From Arthrobacter sp. QXT-31 (GTDB lineage: Bacteria; Actinomycetota; Actinomycetes; Actinomycetales; Micrococcaceae): a DNA stretch of 64,000 nt. This document shows positions 33,641 through 36,213 of the stretch, piece by piece. Where the stretch lies: the NCBI RefSeq assembly GCF_001969265.1, contig NZ_CP019304.1:4712001-4776000 (forward strand), read 5' to 3'. The notes beneath the pieces were generated by a model. It saw nothing but the letters and a program-made list of their open reading frames with translations. It was not told where the DNA came from and searched no databases. The translations under genes were made by a program, and so were the position numbers. How positions within the stretch are numbered: the first letter of the stretch is position 1; each line of letters opens with the position of its first letter.

Positions 33641-34585
33641 GTGAGCACGGCTTCACGCCTCCCCCAGTTCGTCGGCCGCCTGGCATCCAAGCTGCCCGTC
33701 ACCGTCGATTCGACAGTCCGCCGCCTCGCTGTGCTGTCCCTCATCGGGCAGACGGTCCTGGTGGTGACCGGCGGCGCTGTCCGGCTGACCGCCTCCGGTC
33801 TGGGCTGCCCGACGTGGCCCCGCTGCACGAACGAGTCCCTCGTGAACACCCCGGAAATGGGCATCCACGGGTTCATCGAGTTCGGCAACCGCCTGCTGAC
33901 GTTCGCCCTCGCCGCCGTCGCCGCACTCATGCTCGTGTACCTGTGGAACCTGCGCAAGGAGCGCAAGGACCTCTTCCTGCTGGCGCTGGGCCTGCTGGCG
34001 AGTATCCCGGCGCAGGCCATCATTGGCGGCATCACCGTGCTGACGCAGCTGAACCCGTGGGTGGTGGGCCTGCATTTCCTGGTCTCGATGGCCCTGGTGG
34101 TCTTCGCCACGCTGCTGGTCAACCGGGCCTACGGGAGGACAGGCAGGTTCCGGACCCACTCCCTGGCCGCGCTGCCGGGCACCCTGCGCCCGGTGATGAC
34201 CGCCGTCGCGCTTTTCTCCGCCGTGGCCGTGATGCTGGGCGTCGTGGTGACCGGAGCCGGACCGCACGCCGGCGATGCCGACGCGCCGCGCAACAACCTC
34301 GACTGGGACCTCTTCTCGCACATCCATGCCGTGCCCGCGTACCTCGTCACTGCCGGCACGCTGGTCGCCGTGTACTTCGTGTTCCGGCGCGGAATTGCGG
34401 GGATCTTCCGGACGGCTGTGCTGATGCTCCTCGGCGTCACCGTGCTCCAGGCCGCCATCGGCTTCACGCAGTACTACAACGGCATTCCGGCGCTCCTCGT
34501 CGGGGCGCACATGCTGGGCGCGGCCCTGCTGATGAGTGCGGCAACCAACGCAGCCGACATCGCCCGCTCCAGCCCCGTCAGCTAG
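33641..34585 (+). CDS. ctaA: Heme A synthase (COX15/CtaA)
   Basis: 314 residues from a GTG at 33641, seven nt after the permease stop. Eight membrane segments are evident. 'LVVTGGAVRLTASGLGCPTWPRC' and the His-bearing 'GIHGFIEFGNRLLTF' are CtaA signatures. It oxidises the methyl group of heme O to the formyl of heme A in the membrane, for aa3-type cytochrome oxidase. The partner ctaB is convergent to its right. Confidence 0.94.
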   Translation: MSTASRLPQFVGRLASKLPVTVDSTVRRLAVLSLIGQTVLVVTGGAVRLTASGLGCPTWPRCTNESLVNTPEMGIHGFIEFGNRLLTFALAAVAALMLVYLWNLRKERKDLFLLALGLLASIPAQAIIGGITVLTQLNPWVVGLHFLVSMALVVFATLLVNRAYGRTGRFRTHSLAALPGTLRPVMTAVALFSAVAVMLGVVVTGAGPHAGDADAPRNNLDWDLFSHIHAVPAYLVTAGTLVAVYFVFRRGIAGIFRTAVLMLLGVTVLQAAIGFTQYYNGIPALLVGAHMLGAALLMSAATNAADIARSSPVS

Positions 34586-34590
34586 CCTTC

Positions 34591-34718
34591 ACGCCCGCTC
34601 ATTCCCTGCCGCTTCTTCCCCGACGCTCTATCACTTCCTGTCGCCTCTTTCCCGACGCTCTATCAGTTCCTCTCGGGGTCTTTTCAACGCTCTATCAGTT
34701 CCGCGTCCCCAGGTCCTG
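34591..34718 (+). repeat. Array A: four degenerate 32-bp tandem repeats
   Basis: Units start at 34591, 34623, 34655 and 34687, exactly 32 bp apart. The core is ACGCTCTATCA, followed by a TTCCT(G) block and a C/T-rich tail (CTCTTTCCCG in unit 2). Unit 1 is more divergent (ACGCCCGCTCA). A further weak copy may start near 34732. Confidence 0.8.
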
Positions 34719-35039
34719 CGGGAATTCTCGAGACGTTTGATCACTGTCGCCGCCATGAGTGGCGGGCTCTCTCCCGCAAAGAGACCGCACGACGTCGTTG
34801 GCGCTGGGCGACCGGCGATGGTGTTTGTCCACGTTCTGCGGTCCGAACCGCCAGCCAGCTTCGGGGAGGGTGCCTCGATCTGAACTGGTCCCATGATGCT
34901 CCACACGGTCTACGAGCGCTTACCGTTGCAGGAGTTGGCGGTCCTGGACAGGCCGCGTCGTGCATTTCCTCTGGCGCCAGGCAGCACCGCGCGGCGCGCC
35001 TTGGTGGACCCACGGCATTCAGACACTTCGTATGCGACG

Positions 35040-35075
35040 AGTAATGCTCCCTGACATTGGTCAGGGAGCATTACT
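35040..35075. terminator. Perfect 15-bp hairpin between the repeat arrays
   Basis: Arms AGTAATGCTCCCTGA (35040-35054) and TCAGGGAGCATTACT (35061-35075) are perfectly complementary with a 6-nt loop (CATTGG). It can terminate transcription from ctaA or ctaB, or be the end of a small mobile repeat. Confidence 0.6.
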
Positions 35076-35084
35076 GTCTTCAGT

Positions 35085-35263
35085 GCAGGATCTGATGGGG
35101 CGGCGGGGGAAAAGCCTGCAGGATCTGATGGGGCGTTGGGGGAAAGCCTGCAGGATCTGATGGGGCGTTGGGGGAAAGCCTGCAGGATCTGATGGGGCGT
35201 CGGGGGAAAGCCTGCAGGATCTGATGGGGCGTTGGGGGAAAGCCTGCAGGATGTGAGGACGCG
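35085..35263 (-). repeat. Array B: five to six 32-bp tandem repeats, inverted relative to array A
   Basis: Units begin at 35085 (33 bp), 35118, 35150, 35182 and 35214 (32 bp each), with a partial sixth at 35246-35263. Copies are nearly identical (GCAGGATCTGATGGGGCG core). The reverse complement (ACGCCCCATCAGATCCTGC) aligns with array A units at about 21 of 32 positions and has the same period, so the two arrays belong to one family. Confidence 0.85.
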
Positions 35264-35265
35264 TT

Positions 35266-36213
35266 TTAGCCCATGATCGGCGTGCCGACGAACGGGTCGA
35301 CGGCCAGCGCGATGAAGAGCAGCGTCAGGTAGCTGATGGAGCCGTGGAAGACCTTCATCGCGCCCTTGTCCGAAAGGTCGCCGCCCTGCGCCCGGTTGTA
35401 CAGGGCGTGGGACTCGTAGAGGAACCAGGCGCCGGCCAGCACGGCCACCGAGGTGTAGACCCAGCCCGCGCTGCCCGCGGGGATCATCAGCAACGAGCAC
35501 GCGACCATGGCCCAGGCGTACAGAACCACCTGCACGGAAACGACCCTGGCGCCGGCGATGGCACCGAGCATCGGCACGTTGGCGTTGCGGTAGTCCTCGC
35601 CGTAGCGCATGGACAGCGGCCAGTAGTGCGGCGGGGTCCACAGGAAGATCACCATGAACAGCACGAGGGCCGGCCACTCGACAGTGTTGGTGACGGCGGA
35701 CCACGCAATCAGCACTGGGAAGCAGCCCGCAGCGCCGCCCCAGACGATGTTCTGGGCAGTGCGCCGCTTGAGGATCATCGTGTAGATGACGACGTAGAAG
35801 ACGATGGCACCGAGTCCAAGCCATGCGGAGAGCGGGTTGGCGCCGAACCATAGGATGGCTATGGCCGCCGCGCCCAGCAGCCACGCAAACACCAGCGCCT
35901 CGCGTGGCGTCACCTCACCGGTAACGAGGGGGCGGTTCTCCGTACGGTGCATCAGCTTGTCGATGTCACGGTCGATGTAGCAGTTGAATGCACCGGCGCT
36001 GCCGGCGGCAAAGGCGCCACCGACAAGGGTTGCCATGATGAGCCCCAGGGACGGGAAGCCGCGCTGCGCGTAGATCATGGTGGGCAGGGTGCTGACCAGC
36101 AGGAGTTCGATGACCCTGGGCTTGGTGAGTGCAAGGTACGCCTTCGCCTTGCGGGCTAGTCCGGCTCTTCCGTGGACCCGGGAAGAGGTCAGCGGCGTAT
36201 CTGTTGTGCTCAC
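35266..36213 (-). CDS. ctaB: Protoheme IX farnesyltransferase (heme O synthase)
   Basis: 315 residues from the GTG at 36213 ([12 protein letters not shown]); upstream in-frame ATGs at 36312 and 36441 are less likely. UbiA-family signatures are '[25 protein letters not shown]', the Asp-rich '[21 protein letters not shown]' and a second '[29 protein letters not shown]'. It attaches a farnesyl group to heme B, making heme O, the substrate of ctaA. Membrane protein with about eight to nine segments. Confidence 0.94.

Follow-up and report, generated by a model that had tools for sequence, protein, structure and literature searches.

Background

Dispersed repeats at gene ends, for example REP sequences and BIMEs, have been known for decades, and their function is still unsettled. 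In iterons and Lrp-type operator arrays, direct repeats set whole helical turns apart are read as protein sites. BIMEs (pairs or arrays of REP sequences), and especially the gyrase-binding BIME-2 of Escherichia coli, resemble the 32-bp family described here in that they are dispersed and intergenic, follow the 3' ends of genes, occur in convergent gaps, carry motifs repeated in opposite orientation and vary in copy number between genomes. This habit of REP sequences and BIMEs at gene ends is documented in PMC3733652 and PMC2817692. However, the REP unit is a palindrome of 20–40 bp, whereas the unit of the present family is an asymmetric 12-bp head plus a tail, and only the centre of a cluster is palindromic. 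BIME units alternate, whereas here same-orientation runs are found and mixed clusters are nearly always inward; the fixed 32-bp tiling and the helical-turn rule are further differences, and no cognate RAYT is present in the genome of Arthrobacter sp. QXT-31. The non-palindromic units, the lack of a RAYT in QXT-31 and the inward rather than alternating arrangement place the family outside REP/BIME, as a dispersed gene-end repeat that is BIME-like in habit.

The gyrase binding motif of E. coli obtained by Topo-seq consists of phased A/T and G/C at about 10.7 bp, downstream of genes, a phasing that the present family may share; in contrast, this family, which is known from sequence alone, has a conserved base-specific 12-bp head with genome-specific variants. 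Bidirectional intrinsic terminators likewise place a hairpin, readable from both strands, in the middle of a convergent gap, and a stable GC-rich hairpin of this kind is found here; unlike them, the family flanks its hairpin with phased tandem arm-like motifs and often has no T-run. Like iterons and Lrp-type arrays it consists of direct repeats at whole helical turns, but it lies at gene ends and not at origins or promoters, occupies dozens of loci per genome and has an inverted partner array. In the literature searched, which covered few subscription journals, no description of the 32-bp family was found. Arthrobacter livingstonensis is listed in a table of palindromic-element counts in PMC12306157, where the palindromic centres of this species may have been counted.

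The ctaA/ctaB gap of QXT-31

The QXT-31 genome was searched as a single 5.04-Mb contig, and the window is the 64,000-nt stretch at positions 4712001-4776000 of this contig. The features of the ctaA/ctaB region are, in window coordinates:

33641..34585, + strand: ctaA, COX15-CtaA protein (PF02628, Pfam); stop codon TAG at 34583-34585
34591..34702, + strand: array A, four heads (34591, degenerate; 34623; 34655; 34687) with a 32-bp period
34703..35039, strand not applicable: single-copy DNA between array A and the hairpin
35040..35075, strand not applicable: perfect hairpin, 16-bp arms (35040-35055 and 35060-35075) and 4-nt loop
about 35076..35268, - strand: array B, six heads with 5' ends at 35103, 35136, 35168, 35200, 35232 and 35264
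35266..36213, - strand: ctaB, UbiA prenyltransferase (PF01040, Pfam); stop codon TAA at 35266-35268, start codon tentative

An earlier note on this DNA had described two reverse-oriented 32-bp arrays of one family, sharing about 21 of 32 bases, between convergent ctaA and ctaB. Pfam confirms both gene identities, heads were found at all four positions that the note gave for array A (34591, 34623, 34655 and 34687), and an 81-nt inverted match of 70% identity between the arrays agrees with the proposed kinship. The period of 32 given for array B was also recovered by TRF (5.4 copies, 95% matches), its internal spacings being 32 except for one of 33; its copies are near-homogeneous, and array B appears recently expanded, as the note had suggested. 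When the window was searched for the shared core with up to three mismatches, 10 matches were obtained against 0.46 expected, nine of them inside arrays A and B. An Rfam search of the window gave nothing above the gathering score.

The first head of array A lies 5 nt past the ctaA stop codon in sense with ctaA, and its fourth unit degenerates beyond its head. The outermost head of array B lies 1 nt past the ctaB stop codon in sense with ctaB. The two arrays therefore have opposite orientation because each is in sense with its own gene and the genes converge. The two arrays belong to a single family, and each is the gene-end element of its own gene.

Several points of the earlier description had to be changed. 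The hairpin arms, given as 15 bp, measure 16 bp, and the hairpin is not separate from the arrays, since a degenerate head (5' end at 35071) is part of its right arm, exactly 32 bp from the array B head at 35103. The unique DNA to the left of the hairpin, put at about 300 bp, amounts to roughly 330 bp and is single-copy: positions 34715-35040 had no other match in the QXT-31 genome or in 58 relatives. The exclusion of CRISPR holds; CRISPR arrays have unrelated non-self spacers, whereas the array B tails are near-identical and the region gave no phage or plasmid match. The membership at gene 3' ends, the helical spacing rule, the register of the hairpin with array B and the recurrence at the orthologous gap were absent from the earlier note.

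The unit

The unit opens with the 12-bp head ACGCTCNCTCAC; counted from 0, a conserved T follows at +13 and a conserved G at +17, and positions of about +22 to +25 form an A/T tract. In each of the five sequence sets the tract follows the conserved T at a distance of about 10 bp; T is commoner than A and both are used (TTTT in 18 and AAAA in 10 of 47 distinct units from four genomes). This interchange of T and A at a fixed helical position indicates a DNA-level property, since an exchange of A and U would hardly be neutral in a motif read as RNA. The A/T peaks of the tail are about 10 bp apart with the three-turn period, the third being off phase by eye. Tails diverge strongly between species, and heads are related. 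Among the matches listed, the head base N was T,T in 26 of 26 cases in genome G080 and G,G in 24 of 25 in G087; variants were mixed within G101, G318, G111 and G031.

A possible hairpin that would enclose the A/T tract within the tail was considered and rejected: of 15 column pairs analysed, 20-27 was clearly above shuffles (1/500) and 18-29 weakly so (43/500), and several others fell below shuffles. DNA uptake sequences were also discarded, as these are present as single copies in great number, coding DNA included, whereas two head patterns gave no match in 260 kb of control DNA and a looser pattern gave 11, against a shuffled mean of 14.7.

The sense strand of the QXT-31 unit is C-rich and G-poor, array A is unstructured and the units of this genome lie just past stop codons, all of which would suit rut-like sites for the loading of Rho. 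This explanation looked convincing in QXT-31, but the tails of G080/98/99/101 have G in 75% and 80% at two sense positions; the excess of C over G in the sense strand, by which a Rho utilisation site is known, is therefore not conserved in other species. Rho is not known to require a 12-bp motif or a phasing by three turns. Rho loading is thus very improbable as the basis of the family.

Distribution of the family

The ungapped core occurs in 23 exact copies in the QXT-31 genome, against none for the reversed pattern, and in 67 copies with up to three mismatches, against two. A sequence-only model gave at least 139 matches at E≤0.1 in this genome (150 of 2750 candidates scored). A weight matrix applied to fetched QXT-31 stretches, which were chosen because earlier searches matched there, revealed 170 units of at least 14 bits, grouped into 41 clusters; control DNA of 260 kb had no unit at that score. 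The dispersed repeat that the earlier note considered is therefore real, and it extends to other genomes. Model matches at E≤0.001 were present in 23 of 59 genomes, namely QXT-31, 22 of 36 other members of the genus and none of 22 from other families.

A strict two-head pattern was found in 103 of 150 genomes of the genus (0 to 193 matches per genome), whereas the reversed control pattern gave none in all 150. In the family it was present in 22 of 295 genomes, confined to 2 of the 32 genera sampled, and in the order in 6 of 198, five from the same genus and one from another family; the latter match is single, 30-bp-spaced and within a short repeat, and appears unrelated. In the named collection at least 115 stretches matched, and the 80 records listed are Arthrobacter, Pseudarthrobacter or a Micrococcaceae bacterium. 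The strict pattern recovers 3 matches in QXT-31 versus 170 matrix units, and because it misses most units a zero count is no proof of absence in the genus, family and order scans. It was absent from 47 of the 150 genus genomes, which indicates that the element is dispensable there or built on another head.

Some of these results are those expected of a selfish REP/BIME-type repeat that is moved by a putative mobiliser, lands or survives mainly at gene ends and serves the host only secondarily. Among the genera sampled only two carry the strict pattern, the copy number is very uneven (up to the 193 strict matches mentioned), variants are often specific to a genome, and the 3'-end location is like that of REPs in PMC3733652. 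However, no Y1_Tnp (RAYT) domain was found in QXT-31, and only one of 20 array-bearing genomes, QXT-31 included, contained one. The units are non-palindromic, and mobility alone predicts neither strict helical phasing nor inward polarity. A phage or plasmid origin was rejected likewise, within the limited reach of searches that gave no match of the exact strict pattern in viral contigs and no match to phages or plasmids when the letters of the window region were used with a low-complexity filter. We therefore regard a selfish repeat as rather unlikely, and the "mobile remnant" of the earlier note is not supported by the RAYT, phage and plasmid searches.

Spacing of the heads

In the genus scan the gap between the two heads was left free at 5-34 nt. 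Among the matches listed (150, from 10 of the 103 genomes), 146 had a gap of 20 nt, that is a 32-bp period, three of 21 nt and one of 18 nt. In the runs of QXT-31, 93 of 104 spacings were 32, the others being 29, 31, 33 and 36, and 21 of 25 pairs of adjacent units with random-like linkers (identity <0.45) were exactly 32 bp apart. The ctaB loci were compared in 30 loci fetched from the 59 genomes with a ctaB match, QXT-31 included. TRF gave 14 rows of period 32 in 10 of these loci, with tails that differ between species, plus one row of 33 in another locus, two rows of period 64 (multiples) and three of 24; no row of period 32 was present in the 260 kb control. Over all loci, same-strand neighbours were 32 bp apart in 494 cases, 31 in 11, 33 in 18 and 64 in 27, and none lay at 21-22 or 42-43 bp (two or four turns). 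These totals include loci fetched with a 32-bp pattern, and the counts from the 115 named stretches lean to 32 because the pattern used to fetch them fixed one 32-bp pair; the genus and family strict-pattern scans (gap 5-34) and the ctaB loci are free of this bias.

The gap between heads of opposite strand was never part of any search pattern. From a + head to the next - head it clustered at 3-5, 13 and 24 (+32 or +64), with a phase period of 10.67 bp (n=124, nR2 60.5); over 104 clusters nR2 was 48.5 at 10.7 bp. Gaps with dissimilar interiors gave nR2 36.3 at 10.6 bp (n=91), where 2000 Monte Carlo draws reached 11.3 at most, and the gaps of at least 15 bp among them gave 19.9 (n=62) versus a maximum of 13.5. 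Modulo 32, 55 of the 91 fell at 1-7, 15 at 13-16, 13 at 23-25 and 8 elsewhere. Common descent may account for some of the gap classes, since many of the 13-bp interiors resemble one another. The family thus carries an internal ruler, by which direct or inverted sites are almost always whole helical turns apart, and this ruler favours a DNA-level function even when nothing but the sequence is considered.

Arrays of this kind could be docking sites for gyrase, an enzyme needed behind genes and above all between convergent ones. DNA with phased A/T and G/C tracts would wrap around the enzyme, and the arrays would be BIME-2-like with no dedicated protein. The units are three turns long with the A/T tract at a fixed position. 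According to PMC6379681, the E. coli gyrase motif spans 130 bp with a 10.75-bp GC periodicity, gyrase sites are overrepresented behind strongly transcribed operons, and BIMEs are bound and cleaved by the enzyme; positive supercoils accumulate between convergent genes in E. coli and yeast, as reported in PMC8360656. The motif is nevertheless described as degenerate (PMC6379681), to which a base-specific 12-bp head that varies by genome is a poor fit. The clusters are also short, with a median of 3 heads and a span of 101 bp. Because the head is base-specific and has genome-specific variants, a dedicated protein is favoured over gyrase. To our knowledge gyrase is universal, yet the strict pattern is confined to the 2 of 32 genera mentioned. 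Docking of gyrase is therefore an unlikely account of the arrays.

One array departs from the 32-bp rule within a called gene: that at L102 2635-2765 (G000:C1:1562134-1562264) has a period of 33, equal to 11 codons, and reads in frame as an Ala/Pro-rich repeat near the C-terminus.

Genomic context and orientation

Gene context was assigned with a simple codon-usage caller. Among 224 clusters with at least two heads and both neighbours called, 111 lay in convergent, 97 in co-directional and 16 in divergent gaps, so that convergent or co-directional gaps hold 208 of the 224. The control gaps of at least 80 bp (n=140) comprised 15 convergent, 80 co-directional and 45 divergent; they come from QXT-31 only, that is from 13 control stretches and the window, which itself holds the ctaA/ctaB gap. 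The enrichment in convergent gaps (Fisher p 3e-15) is uncorrected for kinship of the genomes, and such p-values overstate independence because the clusters come from related genomes, several per genome. The link to convergent gene ends proposed in the earlier note is evident in these counts.

Lone arrays in co-directional gaps were in sense with the preceding gene in 31 of 42 cases and against it in 11; in convergent gaps the sense gene was the nearest in 40 of 52 and the opposite was true in 12. Sense orientation is a bias. Sense arrays begin a median of 15 bp past the stop codon, and for 154 of the 245 the distance is no more than 25 bp. Mixed clusters (n=124) were inward in 115 cases, outward in 6 and complex in 3, and since inward clusters also prevailed in divergent gaps (9 to 1), the inward polarity is intrinsic to the element. 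The genes flanking the clusters were grouped in search of a candidate protein; recurrent neighbours were housekeeping-like by eye, and no candidate emerged among them.

The central hairpin

A hairpin with arms of at least 12 was present in 97 of 122 inward clusters, versus 2 of 122 control stretches, which were random 60-bp places with coding DNA included. This count is partly built in, because facing heads with a short gap pair by themselves; in many inward clusters, pairing extends past the heads. The RNA fold of the window hairpin reached -33.1 kcal/mol on the + strand (z -7.5) and -32.5 on the - strand (z -8.7), whereas array A, and array B as far as it was folded, were like shuffled RNA (z -0.07 and -1.1). 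No T-run follows the stem of the window hairpin, which was unflagged as a terminator, and hence termination at this site is something that we infer. The "nucleoid or terminator signal" of the earlier note pointed in the right direction. In a by-eye, uncounted view of the tails of other hairpins, many lacked a T-run and some had one.

The arrays might, alternatively, act at the RNA level only, as by-products or spare arms of intrinsic terminators whose stem arms were multiplied by replication slippage. The match of the head with the hairpin arm, the hairpin in 97 of the 122 inward clusters and the near-homogeneity of array B, such as slippage would produce, are consistent with this. The 32-bp period is, however, constant despite unrelated tails, the gaps of facing heads are helically quantised, the folded arrays lack RNA structure and facing arrays show no clear co-variation; long-range pairing between them was discarded, as + and - units of one locus co-vary only at p 0.05-0.06. 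RNA function alone thus fails to explain the spacing and the tract, for which predicted sites on one DNA face do account, and we consider an RNA-only origin of the arrays quite unlikely.

Proposed function

Spacing, head conservation and location point to a reading that we consider the most likely, at about even odds (probability roughly 0.5): the arrays and the hairpin would form one gene-end punctuation element, made of phased sites for a putative architectural or roadblock protein. In this element, as the sequence shows, a central hairpin is flanked by inward tandem sites tiled at 32 bp, equal to three helical turns; a putative sequence-specific DNA-binding protein would fill the sites side by side on one helix face, recognising the head and bending the DNA at the A/T tract or wrapping it. 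The protein patch together with the hairpin could stop RNA polymerase arriving from either gene, and the patch may also, or instead, anchor the positively supercoiled DNA gathered between convergent genes. The hairpin would be the RNA- or cruciform-level part and the arrays the DNA-level part. Within a genome the head variant is often fixed, as would be expected from co-evolution of site and protein.

A wider proposal is more tentative and, in our estimate, doubtful. The family may represent a previously undescribed bacterial gene-end boundary system, with a putative dedicated architectural protein that co-evolves with the head in each species. Its one-faced three-turn patches would flank hairpins behind dozens of genes in each genome and provide a two-sided polymerase block and a torsional or loop boundary between convergent genes, and the system would be roughly a bacterial counterpart of eukaryotic orientation-specific terminator or insulator arrays. 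The arrays offer bait for the putative binding protein, and the strict-match counts from 0 to 193 per genome constitute a natural copy-number series within one genus.

Chromosomal position and related loci

In QXT-31, 38 of the 41 clusters are no farther than 1.45 Mb from dnaA (2292140), a limit set post hoc, and they are sparse near the presumed terminus; 28 of 41 fall within a quarter genome on each side of dnaA (p 0.03). The position of dnaA served as reference, the GC skew of the fetched stretches being uninformative. Five equal-scoring DnaA-domain matches correspond to frames of 289 aa (G000:C1:409115, 852024, 2212171, 4005415 and 4693169), which we take to be probably IstB-like proteins of one insertion sequence; that at 4693169 is about 19 kb left of the window.

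Near-duplicate complex arrays were observed at G000:C1:973677-973994, 1483251-1483632 and 2571960-2572212. The first two adjoin what by eye is an apparent 5S rRNA end, and the third has similar units in reversed order. At G000:C1:2818937 and 3706755, two copies of one gene end (by eye inositol-1-phosphate synthase) are followed by nearly the same array, evidencing that arrays can travel with duplicated genes.

A similar architecture recurs with different tails at the orthologous ctaA/ctaB gap of other species; the gaps are too divergent between species for alignment by eye. In three array-free loci (L265, L266 and L273) another hairpin, AACGCGGGGTCACTTACGG..., was found just after ctaB in all three, and it may belong to a second dispersed gene-end family.
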